Shown: positions 22,061 through 62,303 of the stretch, in pieces | How the letters are laid out: each line of letters opens with the position of its first letter | Numbering within the stretch: position 1 is the first letter of the stretch | The notes under the pieces: generated by a model | What the model was told of the DNA's origin: nothing | What the model saw: the letters and a program-made list of their open reading frames with translations, nothing else | Databases searched by the model: none | Position numbers and translations under genes: made by a program | Assembly (NCBI RefSeq): GCF_030269645.1 | Contig: NZ_BSTR01000018.1 | Location: 62,001 to 126,000, forward strand | Length of the DNA: 64,000 nucleotides | Direction: 5' to 3' | From: Actinokineospora sp. NBRC 105648 | Lineage (GTDB): Bacteria > Actinomycetota > Actinomycetes > Mycobacteriales > Pseudonocardiaceae

Positions 22061-22097
22061 GGGACCGGCCGCACTGTGCAGGGGTGCGGCCGGTCCC
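22061..22097 (-). terminator. Strong hairpin downstream of the TetR gene
   Basis: A perfect 14-bp GC stem (22061-22074 with 22084-22097) and a 9-nt loop lie about 74 bp past the stop of the TetR gene at 22171. A U-tract is weak. Confidence 0.6.
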
Positions 22098-22170
22098 ACC
22101 ACCTTTCGTCGATTCACTGTGATCATTGTGAAAAGCCGCCCAGGGCCGTGGAAATCCCGACCGGAACGGG

Positions 22171-22794
22171 TCAGGCGTCCTCGAACCGGCTGCCCCACAT
22201 GCCCTCCGGGCTGAACCCGGTCGCGTCCGCGCCCGCCAGCGCGGGCAGCAGCATCCGCCACATCTCGGTCAGGCTGCGCGGGAGGTCGACGCCGTCGCGG
22301 CGGTGCCACCAGACCAGCTCCAGGCCGACGGCGACCGCGGTAACCAGGGTGGCCTGCAGCTCGACCGCGGGCGGGTCGGCCAGCGGCGAGTCCGCGGCCC
22401 GCAGGAAGTGGTCGACCGCGGCGCACCAGTGCTGCAGGAACGGGTCGCGGCGGTCACCGGCGCGGGCCAACCGCAGGCTGGCCCGCACGGTTGGCTCGCT
22501 CTGCAGCCAGCCGACCAGCGCGTGCGTCAGGTCGATCACCGACTGCAGCGCGGGCCGCTCGGCGGTGGCCAGCTTGCCGACCAGCTCGGCCACCAGGTCG
22601 CAGGCCTCGTTCTGCACGGCCCGGCAGATCTCGTCCTTGGAGGCGAAGTGGAAGTACAGCGCGCCCTTGGTGACCCCGCCCGCGCGGCAGATCCGGTCCA
22701 GGCTGGCACCGGCGTAGCCGTGCCGGGCGAACTCCTCGGCCGCGGCCTCCACCAGGTGCGATCGGGTGAGCTCGGAACGCGCCTGCCTCGGCAT
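22171..22794 (-). CDS. ScbR/ArpA-type TetR regulator (gamma-butyrolactone receptor or pseudo-receptor)
   Basis: A 207-aa TetR-family protein. The HTH (about 5-50) is RSHLVEAAAEEFARHGYAGASLDRICRAGGVTKGALYFHFASKDEI, given here as its overlapping parts; the GVTKGALYFHF helix is the hallmark of butyrolactone receptors. The ligand domain has the usual length. ATG 22794 starts the conserved MPRQARSELTR. An ARE-like operator lies about 80 bp upstream. With the neighbouring receptor it forms a receptor/pseudo-receptor pair as in scbR/scbR2 loci; which one binds the hormone is unknown. Confidence 0.88.
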   Translation of the reverse strand: MPRQARSELTRSHLVEAAAEEFARHGYAGASLDRICRAGGVTKGALYFHFASKDEICRAVQNEACDLVAELVGKLATAERPALQSVIDLTHALVGWLQSEPTVRASLRLARAGDRRDPFLQHWCAAVDHFLRAADSPLADPPAVELQATLVTAVAVGLELVWWHRRDGVDLPRSLTEMWRMLLPALAGADATGFSPEGMWGSRFEDA

Positions 22795-22873
22795 CAGCCC
22801 ACCCGCCGGATCGATAACGAGCCCAAGAAGTCCATCGCGGTCGCTCCCCCTGTCGGCACGTCGGGAGCACAGT

Positions 22874-22896
22874 ACAAAACCGACCGCGCGGTTTGT
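22874..22896. promoter_or_regulatory. ARE-like operator upstream of the 22171-22794 TetR gene
   Basis: An imperfect palindrome with left half ACAAAACCG and right half CGGTTTGT. This matches the autoregulatory-element pattern bound by butyrolactone receptors (ACAAACCG with CGGTTTGT). It lies between the two TetR genes, just beyond the stop of the second. Confidence 0.65.
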
Positions 22897-22906
22897 CAAG
22901 GCGGTC

Positions 22907-23536
22907 TCAGGCCGAGATGGCGGCCGCCCCTGACTCCACAATGGACTTGAAGCGGGCGCTGCGCCGGGGTGGGACCAGGCCGGGGAGCACGATCTGCCAC
23001 ATGTCGCGCATCCGGTCGGCCAGGTCCGCCCGGCCCGCGAGCACCTGCGAGGTGGTCTGCACCCCGGTGAACGAGGCGACCATGAACGCCGCGACCGCGT
23101 CCGGCTCGAGCCCCTCGCGCAGGTCGCCGTCCTGCTGGGCGGCGACCAGGCAGTCCCGGCACAGCGCGATCCACCAGCGGTAGGCGTCCGGCGCGGGCGA
23201 GGTGAAGGTGCCCTGCTCGATCACCAGCCGGATGCCCGCGCGCACCCGCACGTCCTCGCGCAGGCTCTCCGCCATCCGGAAGCTGAGCTCGATGAGCGTG
23301 CGCAGCCCGAGCTCGGCGCCCTGCGCGGTGTCCCAGACCCCGAACTGCTCGTCGATCAGCGCCTGGGCGAGCTCCTCCTTGGAGGCGAAGTGGAAGTACA
23401 GCGCGCCCTTGGTGACCCCGGCCTTGACCAGGATGTCCGATAGGCTGGCGGCCGCGAATCCGTGCTCGTCGAACACCGCCGCGGCCGCGTCCAGGATGAC
23501 CGCTCTGGTCCGCTCTGCCCGTTCTTGGCGTGGCAC
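22907..23536 (-). CDS. ScbR/ArpA-type TetR regulator, divergent from afsA
   Basis: A 209-aa gamma-butyrolactone receptor homologue. HTH stretches are RAVILDAAAAVFDEHGFAAAS and DILVKAGVTKGALYFHFASK; the ligand domain includes LRTLIELSFRMAE and AYRWWIALCRDCL. A tryptophan in that region is typical of A-factor-type ligand binding. GTG 23536 is chosen because GGAGGG lies 8 nt upstream and the product starts VPRQERAERTR like its relatives; the 13-residue extension upstream is not supported. It faces afsA across a 178-bp gap containing an ARE-like site. Confidence 0.9.
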   Translation of the reverse strand: MPRQERAERTRAVILDAAAAVFDEHGFAAASLSDILVKAGVTKGALYFHFASKEELAQALIDEQFGVWDTAQGAELGLRTLIELSFRMAESLREDVRVRAGIRLVIEQGTFTSPAPDAYRWWIALCRDCLVAAQQDGDLREGLEPDAVAAFMVASFTGVQTTSQVLAGRADLADRMRDMWQIVLPGLVPPRRSARFKSIVESGAAAISA

Positions 23537-23640
23537 AGGCCAATCCCTCCGAAAGTCCCTAACTGGGTTACCCACCGGTGGTGCAAGATGCGCGCGAAGC
23601 GCAACGCAGAGCGTAGCCCAAACTTCTGGCGAATCTTGAA

Positions 23641-23662
23641 AGAAAACCGTCCGGTAGGTATT
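23641..23662. promoter_or_regulatory. ARE-like operator in the tetR-afsA intergenic region
   Basis: The core AAAACCGTCCGGTAGGTATT (23643-23662) fits the AfsA/ScbR autoregulatory-element pattern: an AACCG half-site, a central CCGG and a GGTATT half. It lies 53 bp upstream of the afsA start and about 105 bp from the divergent receptor start, where a receptor could repress both. Confidence 0.7.
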
Positions 23663-23714
23663 AGCTTATTGGTGTCCCGCACGCCCAGGTGGGGCCAGGC
23701 ACGAGGGGGAACCG

Positions 23715-24665
23715 ATGGCGTCCATGATGGCGGACGAGAGAAACGGCGCCGCGGGGCCATTACCCCACGCGGGGCCGTCCATGTACGAACAGACGGTCCC
23801 GCGGCACCTCGTCCACCGTTCGGCGGTGTCGGAGGTGTTCCTGACCGGGTTCCAGCAGGTCGGCGTCGACACCTTCCACGTCGCGGCGCAGTGGCCGCGG
23901 GCCCACACCTTCTTCGGCCCGCGCAACCCGACCACGCACGACCCGCTGCTGTTCGTCGAGACCATCCGCCAGGCCGGGCTGCTGGTGGCCCACCGCGGCC
24001 TGGCCGTGCCCCTCGACCACCGGTTCCTCTCCCACCACAAGACCTACGACATCGACCCCGAGGGGCTGGTCGTGGGCAGGCGCCCGACCGACGTGCTGCT
24101 GGTGGTGACCGTGCCCGCGGGCCCGCCCGCGCAGGCCCGGCGGATGATGCGGTTCAGCTGCCACCGCGACGGCGAACTGGTCGCGACCGCGGCGGTGCAG
24201 TGGAGCTGCCTGAGCGACGGGTCCTACCGCCGGGTGCGCGGCGACCGGATCACCTGCGGCCAGACCCCGACCGAGCCCGCGGCGGGCCCGGTGCCGCCGC
24301 GGTCGGTGGGCCGCGTGCGCGCCGAGGACGTCGTGCTCACCCCGACGCCGGTCGACCGGGCCTGGTCGCTGCGGGTGGACACCCGGCACCCGGTGATGTT
24401 CGACCACCCCACCGACCACGTGCCGGGCATGGTGGCGGTGGAGGCGGCGCGGCAGGCGGCGATGCTCACCATGGGCACCCCCGACGCGCTGCCGGTGGCC
24501 GCGCGCTTCGGGTTCCACCGGTTCATCGAGTACGACGAGCCGTGCGTGGTGGCGGCCGATCCGCCGGTGGTCGTCGACCACGACCGCACGGAGGTCGCGG
24601 TGCGGCTCACCCAGGGCCGCGACGTCGCGGTGGACGGTGTCCTTACGCTTGTCAGGCATGACTGA
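23715..24665 (+). CDS. AfsA/ScbA-type gamma-butyrolactone synthase
   Basis: A 316-aa protein with two A-factor-biosynthesis hotdog repeats (about 30-150 and 195-310). Typical residues are TVPRHLVHRSAVSEVFLTGF, then HTFFGPRNPTTHDPLLFVETIRQAG in overlapping parts, and MFDHPTDHVPGMVAVEAARQAA. AfsA condenses a beta-ketoacyl-ACP with dihydroxyacetone phosphate, the key step to butyrolactone hormones. ATG 23715 has GAGGGGGA 4 nt upstream. Codon 16 is a rare TTA (23760-23762), which would be avoided only if translation began at ATG 23781. The stop overlaps the next gene by 8 nt. Confidence 0.93.
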   Translation: MASMMADERNGAAGPLPHAGPSMYEQTVPRHLVHRSAVSEVFLTGFQQVGVDTFHVAAQWPRAHTFFGPRNPTTHDPLLFVETIRQAGLLVAHRGLAVPLDHRFLSHHKTYDIDPEGLVVGRRPTDVLLVVTVPAGPPAQARRMMRFSCHRDGELVATAAVQWSCLSDGSYRRVRGDRITCGQTPTEPAAGPVPPRSVGRVRAEDVVLTPTPVDRAWSLRVDTRHPVMFDHPTDHVPGMVAVEAARQAAMLTMGTPDALPVAARFGFHRFIEYDEPCVVAADPPVVVDHDRTEVAVRLTQGRDVAVDGVLTLVRHD

Positions 24666-25650
24666 GTCTGCGCTGTTGAGTTGCCCCACCGACCTCGGGC
24701 AGGTCCTGGTGACCGGTGGCACCGGCTTCATCGGCTCGGCGGTGGTGCGCGCGCTGCTGGGGGCCGGGGTGAGTCCCGCCAAGACCAGGGTGCTCTCCCG
24801 GCGCGGCCTGCCGGAGTGGATGAGCGCGGTCGGCGTCCGGTCGGTGCGCGCCGACCTGCCCGATCCGTCCGGTGTGGACAGTGCGGTGGCCGGGGTGGAC
24901 ACGGTGCTGCACCTGGCCGCACACGTCGGCTCGGACCCGCGGCGCTGCGACGCGGTGAACATCGGCGGCACCCGGGCGATCCTGAGCGCGGCGCGCCGGG
25001 CCGGGGTGCGCCGGACGGTCCAGCTGAGCACGTCCTCGGTGTACGGCGAGTCCGTCCACAGAGGACACCGCGAGGTGGAGATCACGCCCGCGCCCGCCTC
25101 GGCCACCAGCCGCTCCCGGCTGGCCGCCGAGGAGGTGGCGCTCGGCGAGGGGTCGATCGTGCTGCGCCCGCACCTGGTCTACGGCGCGGGCGACCGGTGG
25201 TTCGTCCCCACCCTGGCCCGGGTGCTGCGCGCCGTCCCGACCTGGGTCGACGGCGGCACCGCGCTGGCCTCGCTGGTGGCGGTGGACGACCTGGGCGCGG
25301 CCATCGCGCGGCTGGCCGACCCGGCGGTGGACCTCGAGCCGGGCGCGATCCTGCACGTGAACCACCCGGTGCCGGTGAGCATGCGGTGGCTGATCAGCTC
25401 GCTGGCGGCGTGGACCGGCTTCCCGCTGCCGTCGGGCTCGCTGCCCCGCGCCGAGCACCGGGAGCGCACGCGGCGGGCGCTGCCGTGGCTGACCGACCAC
25501 CAGTTCTCGCTCTTCGCCGACGACCACTACTACGACAGCACCCGCATCTGGACCGCGACCGGCGTCGACCCCGGCCCCGGGCCCGGGGTGCGGCTGGCGG
25601 CGGCCGCGGGCTGGTACCGGGAGACCCTCGCGGGCGCCAACTCGAACTGA
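24658..25650 (+). CDS. NAD-dependent epimerase/dehydratase (butyrolactone reductase candidate)
   Basis: A 330-aa extended short-chain dehydrogenase. The Rossmann motif is VTGGTGFIGSAVVRALL, then STSSVYGES and downstream RPHLVYGAGDRWFVPTLARV. The catalytic Tyr of the YxxxK motif is replaced by a R-S-R-L-A-A context (ATSRSRLAAEEVAL), so chemistry may differ from classic epimerases. Its overlap with afsA implies joint translation; a reductase acting on the butyrolactone intermediate (as proposed for JadW2/BarS1-like enzymes) is the most likely role. Confidence 0.8.
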   Translation: MTESALLSCPTDLGQVLVTGGTGFIGSAVVRALLGAGVSPAKTRVLSRRGLPEWMSAVGVRSVRADLPDPSGVDSAVAGVDTVLHLAAHVGSDPRRCDAVNIGGTRAILSAARRAGVRRTVQLSTSSVYGESVHRGHREVEITPAPASATSRSRLAAEEVALGEGSIVLRPHLVYGAGDRWFVPTLARVLRAVPTWVDGGTALASLVAVDDLGAAIARLADPAVDLEPGAILHVNHPVPVSMRWLISSLAAWTGFPLPSGSLPRAEHRERTRRALPWLTDHQFSLFADDHYYDSTRIWTATGVDPGPGPGVRLAAAAGWYRETLAGANSN

Positions 25651-25659
25651 GGGTCATAA

Positions 25660-25671
25660 AGTTCTAGAACT
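25660..25671. promoter_or_regulatory. GntR operator copy 1, upstream of trpB
   Basis: A perfect 12-bp palindrome AGTTCTAGAACT. It has the same central CTAG and half-site layout as operators of HutC/DasR-type GntR regulators (for example GGTCTAGACC). It lies upstream of the predicted -35 of the trpB promoter. Confidence 0.75.
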
Positions 25672-25679
25672 CTTGGCGG

Positions 25680-25707
25680 TTGTGAGCTACCGTCTGCGTC
25701 ATAGAGT
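25680..25707 (+). promoter_or_regulatory. Predicted promoter of trpB-trpA-gntR
   Basis: A TTGTGA (25680-25685) and TAGAGT (25702-25707) pair is separated by 16 nt. Operator copy 2 covers the end of the -10 box, so repressor binding would block the polymerase. Confidence 0.5.
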
Positions 25708-25716
25708 TCTAGAACT
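25705..25716. promoter_or_regulatory. GntR operator copy 2, upstream of trpB
   Basis: This is an exact second copy of AGTTCTAGAACT, 45 bp centre-to-centre from the first. It overlaps the predicted -10 and ends 15 bp before the trpB GTG. Two identical sites 45 bp apart suggest cooperative binding by one dimeric repressor. Confidence 0.75.
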
Positions 25717-25731
25717 TTAAGGGAGGCTCCC

Positions 25732-26931
25732 GTGCGTGACGCACCCGCGGTGGATCGCATCCGCGCTGGTCAGATGGCCGAGCCCAGCACGGCGGGCCGC
25801 TTCGGCGGGTTCGGCGGCCGGTTCGTGCCCGAGTCGCTGGTACCCGCGTGCCAGGAGGTCGAGCGGGCCTTCCGCGAGGCGTGGGCCGACCCCCGCTTCC
25901 GCGGCCAGCTGGACCGGCTGCTCGCCGGCTACGCGGGCAGGCCCACGGCGCTGACCCCGGCGTGGCGGCTCTCGGGTGACCTCGGGATCACCCTGCTGCT
26001 CAAGCGCGAGGACCTGGCGCACACCGGGTCCCACAAGATCAACAACGTCCTCGGCCAGGCGCTGCTGGCCCGGCGGATGGGCAAGACCCGGCTGATCGCC
26101 GAGACCGGCGCGGGCCAGCACGGTGTGGCCACCGCGACCGCCGCCGCGCTGCTGGGGATGCGCGCCACGGTGTTCATGGGCCAGCGGGACATCGAGCGGC
26201 AGGCGTTGAACGTGTTCCGGATGGAGATGCTGGGCGCCGAGGTCGTGCCGGTCACCTCCGGCAGCCGCACGCTCAAGGACTCGTGCAACGAGGCCATGCG
26301 GCACTGGGTGGGCGCCGTCGAGGACTCCTACTACTGCATCGGCTCGGTCATGGGACCGCACCCGTACCCGTGGATGGTCCGCGAGTTCCAGCGGGTCATC
26401 GGCGACGAGGCCCGCACGCAATGCGCGACGGAACTCCCCGCTGCCGTCCCGGACTACGTGGTCGCCTGCGTCGGCGGCGGGTCGAACGCGGCGGGCACGT
26501 TCGCCGGGTTCGTCGACACCTCGGCCCGGCTGATCGGCGTCGAGGCGGCGGGCGGTGCCGCGATGACCGATGGCGCCGTGGGTGTCCTGCACGGCTTCCG
26601 GTCCCGGGTGCTGCAGGACGACCAGGGGCAGATCGCCGAGGCGCACTCCGTCGCCGCCGGACTCGACTACCCGGGGATCGGGCCGGAGCACGCACATCTG
26701 GGTGAACTCGGTCGAGCGACATACGTGACCGTCGGCGACGACGAGGTGGTCGCCGCCGTGCACCGGCTGGCCCGCAGCGAGGGCATCCTCTGCGCGCTGG
26801 AGTCGGCCCACGCCGTCGCCTGGGTCATCCGCGCCGCCGAGTCGGGAGAGCTGCCACCGGGGGCGACCGTGCTGCTCACGCTGTCCGGCCGGGGCGACAA
26901 GGACATGAGCGCACTGATGGAGCTGGCATGA
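25732..26931 (+). CDS. trpB: Tryptophan synthase beta chain
   Basis: A 399-aa TrpB. The PLP lysine is K102 in HTGSHKINN, with ETGAGQHGVATATAAALLGM, the phosphate-binding GGGSNAAGTF, and LHGFRSRVLQDDQGQ all conserved. It condenses indole and serine to tryptophan. GTG 25732 has GGGAGG 5 nt upstream. It starts a trpB-trpA-gntR operon without trpC/trpD/trpF, so it is probably a secondary trpBA set under dedicated control. The codon and residue conservation argue for a working enzyme. Confidence 0.95.
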   Translation: MRDAPAVDRIRAGQMAEPSTAGRFGGFGGRFVPESLVPACQEVERAFREAWADPRFRGQLDRLLAGYAGRPTALTPAWRLSGDLGITLLLKREDLAHTGSHKINNVLGQALLARRMGKTRLIAETGAGQHGVATATAAALLGMRATVFMGQRDIERQALNVFRMEMLGAEVVPVTSGSRTLKDSCNEAMRHWVGAVEDSYYCIGSVMGPHPYPWMVREFQRVIGDEARTQCATELPAAVPDYVVACVGGGSNAAGTFAGFVDTSARLIGVEAAGGAAMTDGAVGVLHGFRSRVLQDDQGQIAEAHSVAAGLDYPGIGPEHAHLGELGRATYVTVGDDEVVAAVHRLARSEGILCALESAHAVAWVIRAAESGELPPGATVLLTLSGRGDKDMSALMELA

Positions 26932-27698
26932 CCCTCGAGACCCACCTGCGCGCCGTCCGGGAAGGCGGCCGCACCGCACTGGTCCCCTACGTCACCGGCG
27001 GCATCACCGAGTCGTGGACCGATCTCCTGGCCGCGTACGAGGCGGCGGGCGCGGACGCGATCGAGATCGGCCTGCCGTTCTCCGACCCCATGCTCGACGG
27101 CGTCACCATCCAGGAGGCATCGGACCGGTCACTCGCCCGGGGGACCACGGTCGAGTCGATCCTGTCCGACCTGGCGGGGATCTCGGTCGGCATCCCCTTG
27201 ATCGCCATGACCTACGCCAACCTGGCCCTGCGGGACGGCTTCTGCGCCCGGCTGCGCGCCGCGGGCGTCGTGGCCCTGGTGGTCCCGGACGTCCCGTTGG
27301 ACGAGGTGTCGGACCTGGAGCGGTCCGCGGCGGCGGCAGGGGTGGAACTGGTCCTGTTGGCCGCACCGTCGACCCCGCCCGCCAAACTCCCGGAGATCGC
27401 CACCCGCAGCCGAGGTTTCCTGTACGCAATCAGCCGCATGGGCACCACCGGCGAAGCAGGTGAACTCGCCGAGTCGGCCACCGTCCTCGCGGACGCGATC
27501 CGCAACGCGACAGATCTCCCGGTCCTGGTCGGCTTCGGCGTCTCCACCCCCGCGCACGCCGTCCACGCGGCCCGCCACGCCGACGGCGTCGTGGTCGCGT
27601 CCACGCTGATGCGCGCGCTCCTCGACGGCGCCACGCCGAGCGAAGTCGGGGCCCGAGTGGCGGCGATGCGCACCGCCCTGGACACAATGGCCCCATGA
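26928..27698 (+). CDS. trpA: Tryptophan synthase alpha chain
   Basis: A 256-aa TIM-barrel TrpA. The catalytic acids E46 (AIEIGLPFSDP) and D57 (MLDGVTIQ) are present; the usual ADGPVIQ loop reads LDGVTIQ, a diverged form. The phosphate-binding loop SRMGTTGEAG and VGFGVSTPAHA are near normal. It cleaves indole-3-glycerol phosphate and channels indole to TrpB. It overlaps trpB by 4 nt and the GntR gene by 4 nt. Its divergence supports a specialised rather than housekeeping copy. Confidence 0.92.
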   Translation: MTLETHLRAVREGGRTALVPYVTGGITESWTDLLAAYEAAGADAIEIGLPFSDPMLDGVTIQEASDRSLARGTTVESILSDLAGISVGIPLIAMTYANLALRDGFCARLRAAGVVALVVPDVPLDEVSDLERSAAAAGVELVLLAAPSTPPAKLPEIATRSRGFLYAISRMGTTGEAGELAESATVLADAIRNATDLPVLVGFGVSTPAHAVHAARHADGVVVASTLMRALLDGATPSEVGARVAAMRTALDTMAP

Positions 27699-28447
27699 GC
27701 GAACGGCGGCGTACCCCCAAGTACGCCGCCATCGCCGAAGACCTGACCACCAAGATCCACAACGGCGAGTACGCCCCGGGCACGGCACTGCCCGGCCAGC
27801 ACGAGCTGAGCGCCCACTACGGCGTCACCCTCATGACCCTCCGCCAGGCCTTGAGAGTGCTGGCGGACGACGGGTTGATCTCCCAGGAACCCGGCCGCGG
27901 CACCTTCGTACGGTCCCCCACCGCCGCCTACCGCTTGGAGTCCCTGCGCAGCATCGGCGACGACCTGCGCGCCCAAGGTCTGCCGTTGACCACCCGCGTT
28001 ATCCACCGGAGCGTGCGCGCCCTCCCGGTGGGGATCGCCGACATCTTGGCCGCGCCAGGCGGTACCGGCCTGCGCCTGGAACGCGTCCGCGAGATCGGCG
28101 GGCGGCCAGCCGTGCACCAGGTCTCGTGGGTCCCCGCCCCGCACGGCCCCACCATCCGCGACCAGGACTTCACCGCGGTGTCGCTGTACGAGGCCTTGGC
28201 ATCGGTGGGCGCCCAGGTCCACACCGCCACTGAACGCCTGATCCCGGTGGCCCTGCCCGCGCCGGTCGCCGCGCTGCTGGACCGGCCCCCGGGCACCCCG
28301 ACCTTCCAGAGCAACCGCACCACCCACGCCGCCGACGGCACCCCACTGGTCCACGACCAGGCCACCATCCTCGGCGACCTCATGGAAATCCGCACCGAGC
28401 GCTCCGTCCACACCCAAACCGTGCACTGGACCCCCGCCACGCCCTGA
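27695..28447 (+). CDS. GntR/HutC-family repressor of the trpBA operon
   Basis: A 250-aa protein. The winged helix (about 8-74) is KYAAIAEDLTTKIHNGEYAPGTALPGQHELSAHYGVTLMTLRQALRVL, seen as overlapping parts, then GLISQEPGRGTFVRS. A UTRA ligand domain follows (about 95-245). It is the last gene of the trpB-trpA-gntR operon (ATGA overlap). The two AGTTCTAGAACT palindromes upstream of trpB fit this family's operators, so negative autoregulation is likely. The effector is unknown; tryptophan, indole compounds or a sugar phosphate are possible. Confidence 0.88.
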   Translation: MSERRRTPKYAAIAEDLTTKIHNGEYAPGTALPGQHELSAHYGVTLMTLRQALRVLADDGLISQEPGRGTFVRSPTAAYRLESLRSIGDDLRAQGLPLTTRVIHRSVRALPVGIADILAAPGGTGLRLERVREIGGRPAVHQVSWVPAPHGPTIRDQDFTAVSLYEALASVGAQVHTATERLIPVALPAPVAALLDRPPGTPTFQSNRTTHAADGTPLVHDQATILGDLMEIRTERSVHTQTVHWTPATP

Positions 28448-61497: not shown

Positions 61498-62303
61498 GAG
61501 TACGACCTCCGCTGGTCGGGCGGAGGGATCTCCGCGCCCTTGTACTCCACCGGGATGCCGCCCAGCGGGTAGTCCTTGCGCTGGGGGTGTCCGTCCCAGT
61601 CGTCCGGCATCAGGATCCGGGTCAGCGCCGGGTGTCCGTCGTAGACGATGCCGAACATGTCCCAGGCCTCGCGCTCCTGCCAGTCGGCGGTCGGGTAGAC
61701 CGCGACGACCGAGGGGATGTGCGCGTCCTCGACGTCCACCGCGACCTCGAGCCGGATCCGGCGCCGGAAGGTCATCGAGGTCAGGTGGTACACCGAGTGC
61801 AGCCGCTGCGGGACGTCCACCCCGTAGTCCACACCGGAGACCGAGCTGCACAGCTCGAAGCGCAGCACCGGCTCGTCGCGCAGCGCCTGGCACAGCGCCA
61901 CCAGGTGCTCGCGGTGCACGTAGAAGGTGATCTCGCCGCGGTCGACGGTGACCTGCTGGACCGCCTCGGCCGGGATGCCACGACTGGCCATGGCGGCGTT
62001 GAGGTCGTCGGTGAACTCGTCGAACCAGCCGCCGTAGGGCCGCTCGGCCGGGGCCGGGCTGTAGGCGGGCAGCACCAGGCCGCCGAAGCCGGAGGTGTCG
62101 CCGGTGTCGGCGACGTTGAACATGCCCTTGCGGGTGCGGCCTGCCTGCACCGGCTCGGCCGGGACCGGCGCGCGGTGCTCGGCGACCGCGCCGGGCTCCG
62201 GCTGGTCCTGCAGGCCGTCGGCGGGCTGCTGGGCGCTGGAGTGCGCCGCGCCCGTCGGCTTGCCCGCGTCTGCCTCGGGGGTGGTGGGGGTGTCGTCAGC
62301 CAT
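61494..62303 (-). CDS. nuoC: NADH-quinone oxidoreductase subunit C
   Basis: A 269-aa 30-kDa-type subunit: [21 protein letters not shown], then [46 protein letters not shown] in overlapping parts. The first ~65 residues are an extra hydrophilic tail. It joins the peripheral arm and is not fused to NuoD as in some bacteria. It lies 8 bp after nuoB. Confidence 0.96.

Follow-up and report, generated by a model that had tools for sequence, protein, structure and literature searches.

We analyzed a 64-kb stretch of DNA from Actinokineospora sp. NBRC 105648, referred to here as the window (positions 62001 to 126000 of contig C18; the genome comprises 8.43 Mb in 149 contigs and is 100% complete). The window carries a gamma-butyrolactone signaling island, at positions 22171 to 25650, in which two ScbR-family tetR genes (tetR_A and tetR_B), an ScbA/AfsA-type synthase gene (afsA), and an overlapping reductase gene are arranged around two operators resembling autoregulatory elements (AREs). 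In related cassettes, a gene for a Streptomyces antibiotic regulatory protein (SARP) normally adjoins tetR_B. This gene is absent from the island, a point missed by the original prediction for this DNA, and it apparently has left a stub. Our reading, to which we assign a probability of about 0.68, is that the island is an intact gamma-butyrolactone-type loop from the SARP cassette family, that the SARP gene was deleted to a stub of 13 codons, and that the local system now regulates only itself.

Family models were run on ten window proteins; the wider neighborhood was judged by eye, and other genes were called with a codon-composition script. All four island genes scored above their family cut-offs (Table 1), in agreement with the original prediction of a gamma-butyrolactone island, and TetR_A and TetR_B were the only proteins in the genome to pass the NF041196 cut-off. 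The start of tetR_A was revised to the GTG at position 23536, which has GGAGG upstream, and the 5' end of the reductase gene overlaps afsA by 8 bases. AfsA contains two PF03756 stretches (AfsA hotdog domains); its conserved E..RQ motifs are intact, and it has kept all residues that are invariant across an alignment with 10 relatives. An ScbA-type match above the cut-off was found in 4 of 16 genomes of the genus (this one counted) and in 54 of 297 genomes of the family, which indicates an accessory system. The nearest solved structures to TetR_A were AvaR1, a gamma-butyrolactone receptor, and CprB, and both TetR proteins have, as placed by eye, a Trp near the position of what we take to be the ligand-binding Trp of CprB. 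When the window reductase was aligned with its counterparts from 22 relatives, the Tyr expected at the position that presumably belongs to the usual Tyr-xxx-Lys pair of short-chain dehydrogenases was absent from all 22 readable rows alike (a 23rd row was gapped). Because the cassette reductases share this absence, it is a family trait, and the possibility of a broken reductase was rejected. According to a passage of PMC4748050, an IM-2-type signal is made by an Amycolatopsis strain, that is, by an actinomycete outside Streptomyces. The window island is predicted to produce a signal that would be bound by its receptor.

A palindromic ARE pattern (allowing up to 3 mismatches) occurred twice in the 64 kb, against a mean of 0.04 in shuffled sequence, and none of 100 shuffles reached two. 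Since this pattern was written after both window sites had been seen, a matrix drawn from relatives (82 sites from 27 loci, with the window omitted when the window was scored) served as an independent test. The two sites scored 25.8 and 25.3, and the next best position in the window scored 14.6. The two ARE-like palindromes that had been predicted therefore stand as the only strong ones in the window. They were found in the receptor and synthase promoters, the boxes of which were assigned by eye: site 1 covers the 17-base spacer of a TTGACA-N17-TGTACT promoter directed at tetR_B, and site 2 covers TTGAAA-N17-TATTAG directed at afsA. Neither promoter was picked up by a strict promoter scan. One ARE per TetR promoter had been proposed; this description fits site 1 but has to be amended for site 2, which lies in the divergent region between tetR_A and afsA, 52 bases before afsA and 106 bases before tetR_A, and which, given this placement, probably serves both genes. 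Most of the 27 matrix loci contain an ARE in the tetR_A-afsA interval.

The locus comparison comprised 46 loci, including the window; afsA was recognized in 39, and the other 7 were dropped from the counts (a simple gene caller was used). The complete order SARP - tetR_B - tetR_A - afsA - reductase was present in 15 of the 39, and loci L140 to L143 had an adjacent SARP-tetR_B pair two genes from tetR_A, with no reductase after afsA. tetR_B was recognized near afsA in 20 loci. Of these 20, the window alone had no SARP gene, and only there was tetR_B reversed behind tetR_A. A second set, taken from named genomes and partly overlapping the genomes that have G handles, consisted of the best 80 loci obtained with alignment A2 as the query; the single AfsA protein as a query of the named genomes gave no match. 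Gene order in this set was judged from the four genes before and the three after afsA (some loci end early), and all five gene kinds were present, among the genes looked at, in 21 of the best 80. In the co-directional cassettes L227, L237, L238, and L249, tetR_B lacks a separate ARE, which would be expected if it shared the SARP promoter. We also considered a SARP gene displaced to another part of the genome. There were 24 SARP-like matches elsewhere, the best with 47% identity, and at 20 of these loci (with 1.5-kb flanks; the 4 weaker matches lay outside the set) no ARE score exceeded 11.8. No SARP target in trans was therefore found at these 20 loci, and a displaced SARP gene was rejected as an ARE-linked target.

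Phylogenetic analysis placed both AfsA and TetR_B of the window with the Pseudonocardiaceae cassette clade. In the AfsA tree, the window fell in a group of 19 of the 31 rows (support, 99/98), and the other 18 members all have a SARP gene beside tetR_B. In the tetR_B tree, the window grouped with the tetR_B of SARP cassettes at 100/100, with a warning from the program of long branches meeting. The window AfsA was in no starred set comprising up to half of the rows. The trees do not settle whether a SARP gene was lost.

The ARE promoter is separated from tetR_B by a leader open reading frame (ORF), which we regard as a probable SARP stub. By eye, its stop overlaps the tetR_B start (TGATG), it contains one TTA codon, and a ribosome site, AGGGGGAG, is located upstream. 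SARP starts of relatives read MDIELLGPLAVRVGG, MDVEVLGPLAARLGG, and similar. The leader peptide was scored against 19 SARP N termini after SARP starts in several relatives had been corrected. Its score was reached by 3 of 11,749 start peptides from its own genome (the leader itself, one genuine SARP start, and one unrelated peptide) and was equalled by 0.1% of 5,000 shuffles; with uncorrected SARP starts, the corresponding fractions were 0.3% for 6,000 background peptides and 1.2% for shuffles. The leader TTA aligns, by eye and given a six-base gap, with the TTA of L108, L121, and L140 to L143. The tetR_B promoter of the window matched 19 SARP promoters of relatives at a mean of 23.7 of 36 positions (best, 30), compared with a mean of 21.2 (best, 24) for 9 tetR_B promoters. 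In a larger, overlapping promoter set, the best matches were again SARP promoters at 30, and tetR_B promoters reached at most 23.

Taken together, these comparisons suggest how the island would operate. The AfsA synthase and the reductase would make the signal, and TetR_A, perhaps also TetR_B, would be ARE-binding repressors released by it. In the cassette family to which the island belongs, a SARP activator adjoining tetR_B is placed under an ARE promoter. Had this SARP gene been cut to the 13-codon stub, the ARE promoter would now drive a short leader ORF whose translation is coupled to that of tetR_B, so that site 1 would control tetR_B and site 2 would control tetR_A and afsA. With the SARP lost, the local system would regulate only itself, and any output would go to distant genes via one of the two TetR proteins. 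The genes, the sites with their geometry, and the lack of a SARP gene in the island are seen in the sequence itself; the deletion, the coupling, the binding of the repressors, and the signal are inferred.

Table 1. Features of the signaling island and of the adjoining trp operon (positions are those of the window)
Feature	Position	Strand	Basis
tetR_B, ScbR-family regulator, 207 aa	22171..22794	-	NF041196, 169 bits (cut-off, 150)
13-codon leader ORF, MDFLGSLSIRRVG plus stop, probable SARP stub	22794..22835	-	Peptide and DNA comparison with SARP starts
ARE site 1	22876..22895	-	Matrix (25.8 or 25.3 for the two window sites); palindrome pattern
tetR_A, ScbR-type receptor, 209 aa	22907..23536	-	NF041196, 219 bits (cut-off, 150)
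ARE site 2, between tetR_A and afsA	23643..23662	.	Matrix; palindrome pattern
afsA, ScbA/BarX-type butyrolactone synthase, 316 aa	23715..24665	+	NF041195, 314 bits (cut-off, 200)
NAD-dependent reductase/epimerase, 330 aa	24658..25650	+	PF01370, 95.5 bits (cut-off, 20.9)
Twin perfect palindromes AGTTCTAGAACT, probable GntR operator of the trp operon	25657..25719	+	GntR binding inferred
trpB-trpA-gntR operon (GntR/UTRA), neighbor outside the hormone set	25732..28447	+	Family models

A genome search for further ARE sites had been suggested, together with the idea that the hormone system may control a distant target. The genome and the genus were searched with patterns and with a second model, R1, and the matches were then scored with the matrix. 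Five distal sites scored at least 20 (C3:111917, 24.9; C28:84685, 22.0; C8:41173, 21.4; C27:81734, 21.4; and C2:297292, 20.1), and C69:19191 scored 19.4. Across seven genomes of the genus (G001, G003, G005, G008, G009, G010, and G011, identical copies being counted once) there were 2 sites of at least 20, plus 1 in G003 found via R1 only; this comparison set was not selected for receptor absence, and G005 has an AfsA match above the cut-off. In G002, G006, and G007, ARE sites were located at TetR or cassette loci, and G007 also has a 20.4 site elsewhere; the single match in G004 was left unscored, and G012 to G015 were partly covered. Simulated sequence, which ignores codon structure, contained 0.2 to 0.3 sites of at least 20 per genome, and none of at least 24 arose in either of two simulations, each ten genome lengths long. 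The C3, C8, and C27 sites lie inside coding sequence and the C28 site between convergent gene ends; those of C8, C27, and C28 probably are chance occurrences and were discarded. Of the five, only C2:297292 has an upstream position, about 80 bases ahead of the gene for a secreted hydrolase. R1 gave little excess (15.8 for the C3 site, compared with 15.0 for the best G003 site). The search thus yielded a slight excess of sites by the matrix, and a distant target is possible, but with three of the five sites in coding sequence and little excess by R1, no target is established.

The C3 site lies within a GMC oxidoreductase gene, 90 bases in. This gene is divergent from an MFS gene, and no ARE was found in the intergenic promoter itself. 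The genes at 99 to 114 kb of this contig encode an AdoHcyase-like/cupin protein, a luciferase-like enzyme, an oxidoreductase, a relative of myo-inositol-phosphate synthase, a PfkB kinase, a purine phosphorylase, and a HAD hydrolase, a set that we take to be reminiscent of aristeromycin-type carbocyclic nucleoside clusters. The AdoHcyase-like protein had no match above 38% identity among the matches listed elsewhere in the 297 family genomes. Work on aristeromycin-type clusters is cited in a passage of PMC12648386. Elsewhere in the genus, a strong ARE (24.3; L153, G006:C3:282879) lies between divergent genes, some 85 kb away from the cassette of A. enzanensis, and may mark a distal target there. 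AfsA-domain genes that have, by eye, a SARP-like gene and KAS III-like enzymes as neighbors also were seen in L042 (G000:C12), L038 (G005), and L039 (G009); no ScbR-like gene was recognized in these stretches, which perhaps represent another use of the AfsA domain.

Several observations weigh against deletion of a SARP gene. The tetR_B branch is long (0.85), the stub is only 13 residues in length, and the form with an inverted tetR_B and no SARP is known from one genome only. When Streptomyces rows were added to the AfsA tree, support was 94/88 and the window became one of three unresolved basal branches of the SARP group, whose sister group consisted of 17 Streptomyces rows classed by the analyst as lacking an adjacent SARP gene; in five of these sister-group loci (L240, L241, L244, L245, and L246), a SARP-like gene occurs beyond the reductase, at a distance of two genes. 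A set of tetR_B, tetR_A, afsA, and reductase that was SARP-less within the genes considered was present in 9 of the best 80 named loci, all of them from Streptomyces. The SARP promoters vary widely, many rows scoring 16 to 23 of 36 and several being no nearer than the tetR_B promoters, and the DNA match of the leader is mixed: of 5,000 background stretches, 0.1% reach its mean score and 5.5% its best score. The island could, on this evidence, be an ordinary SARP-less cassette as in several Streptomyces, with the ancestral arrangement kept and a leader ORF that arose by chance: the sister group and the ordinary best DNA match of the leader would fit, L250 and L281 likewise have co-directional tetR_B and tetR_A beside afsA, and Streptomyces tetR_B promoters can carry an ARE too. 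We consider this unlikely, given that the leader peptide is similar to SARP starts, that the tetR_B promoter is nearest to SARP promoters, and that AfsA and tetR_B group with the Pseudonocardiaceae SARP cassettes.

Two further explanations were considered. The loop might control distant genes, for which the cyclitol/nucleoside-like cluster on C3, via the site within the GMC oxidoreductase gene, is the best candidate. The score of that site is near those of the island, with none as high as 24 in the simulations, the genome has five distal sites against 2 (or 3) in the seven genus genomes, and the listed matches of the AdoHcyase-like protein elsewhere in the family stay at or below 38% identity; against this, the site is within coding sequence, the simulations ignore codon structure, its R1 score barely exceeds that of the best G003 site, the intergenic promoter has no ARE, and three of the five sites are in genes and one is between gene ends. 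Control of this cluster is thus rather improbable. More doubtful still is the extended scenario in which SARP deletion made an antibiotic switch into a closed loop, the SARP start was kept as a translated TTA-containing leader coupled to tetR_B, and both TetR proteins were re-aimed at the distant, genome-specific C3 cluster. The island might instead be a decaying remnant, its output lost and the loop losing function. The absence of the SARP gene, the long branches of AfsA (0.81) and tetR_B, and the lack of a certain distal target are consistent with decay, but all four genes are open and above their family cut-offs, the AfsA motifs are intact, and the operators are strong; we find a remnant about as hard to credit as control of the C3 cluster. 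An intact, self-regulating loop from which the SARP gene was deleted remains our preferred reading.

The genes around the island are core genes, such as those for ribosomal proteins and the nuo genes (recognized by eye from sequence), and the window contains four tRNAs. No biosynthetic cluster was seen beside the island, the wider neighbors having been read by eye and ten proteins scanned with family models; the absence of an antibiotic cluster had been stated previously. The trpBA-gntR operon had been put forward as its close metabolic neighbor. This link was rejected: the operon has no ARE and has its own twin palindromes, it was not within five genes of afsA in any of the 38 other loci with a recognized afsA, and neither trpA nor trpB was near afsA in any of the best 80 named loci. 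In its exact 14-base form, AAAGTTCTAGAACT, the palindrome is found in this genome at just two places, both in the trp promoter. Across 294 genomes this form was present in 2, the other occurrence being in DNA of 58% GC in which no trp gene was recognized. The window TrpA has the motif residues Glu and Asp (by eye), which are presumably functional, and so looks like an ordinary additional tryptophan synthase. The operon is best read as self-regulated and unconnected with the hormone set. The genome has three copies of trpA; by eye, the primary trp operon is the one on C14, and C50 has a trpCBA set close to genes of the aromatic pathway. This trpCBA set (L149, G000:C50:13500-33499) lies beside anthranilate-synthase-like, glutamine-amidotransferase-like, trpD-like, and DAHP-synthase-like genes (by eye) and looks like the tryptophan-supply part of a biosynthetic cluster.

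Gamma-butyrolactone systems usually are studied together with an adjacent antibiotic cluster. Among the papers listed in searches on butyrolactone systems of Actinokineospora, Amycolatopsis, and Pseudonocardiaceae, we found no report of a cassette in which a SARP is reduced to a leader. If our reading is correct, a set that has a synthase, receptors, and operators and no local activator would offer a test of whether such a loop is kept for another target, and of whether a leader peptide that arose through deletion can come to control a repressor gene.

ScbR/ScbA of S. coelicolor, BarA/BarX/BarS of S. virginiae, and ArpA/AfsA of S. griseus share with the window island their receptor and synthase families and autoregulation through AREs, but they have known targets, and for the window island none is established. 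The closest counterparts are the Pseudonocardiaceae SARP cassettes (A. enzanensis L035/L239, A. bangkokensis L036/L249, Lentzea flava L109/L237, Amycolatopsis, and others), which share the four genes and the afsA-reductase order and have an ARE in the tetR_A-afsA interval. In these cassettes the SARP gene is under an ARE promoter, whereas in the window it is absent and tetR_B is inverted. A passage of the A. bangkokensis draft genome report places a butyrolactone cluster on scaffold 9, at 112,144 to 123,172, where L036 lies (PMC6273641). The SfbR/SfbR2 system of S. filipinensis, as described in passages of PMC7480387, resembles the window island in having a receptor and a pseudo-receptor and AREs within the gamma-butyrolactone cluster; an indirect effect on filipin was shown experimentally there, whereas the window island is known from sequence alone. 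Those passages report five AREs in genes of the gamma-butyrolactone cluster and none in the filipin gene promoters, and control is therefore taken as indirect. To judge from this case, a set without AREs at antibiotic genes is not unprecedented.

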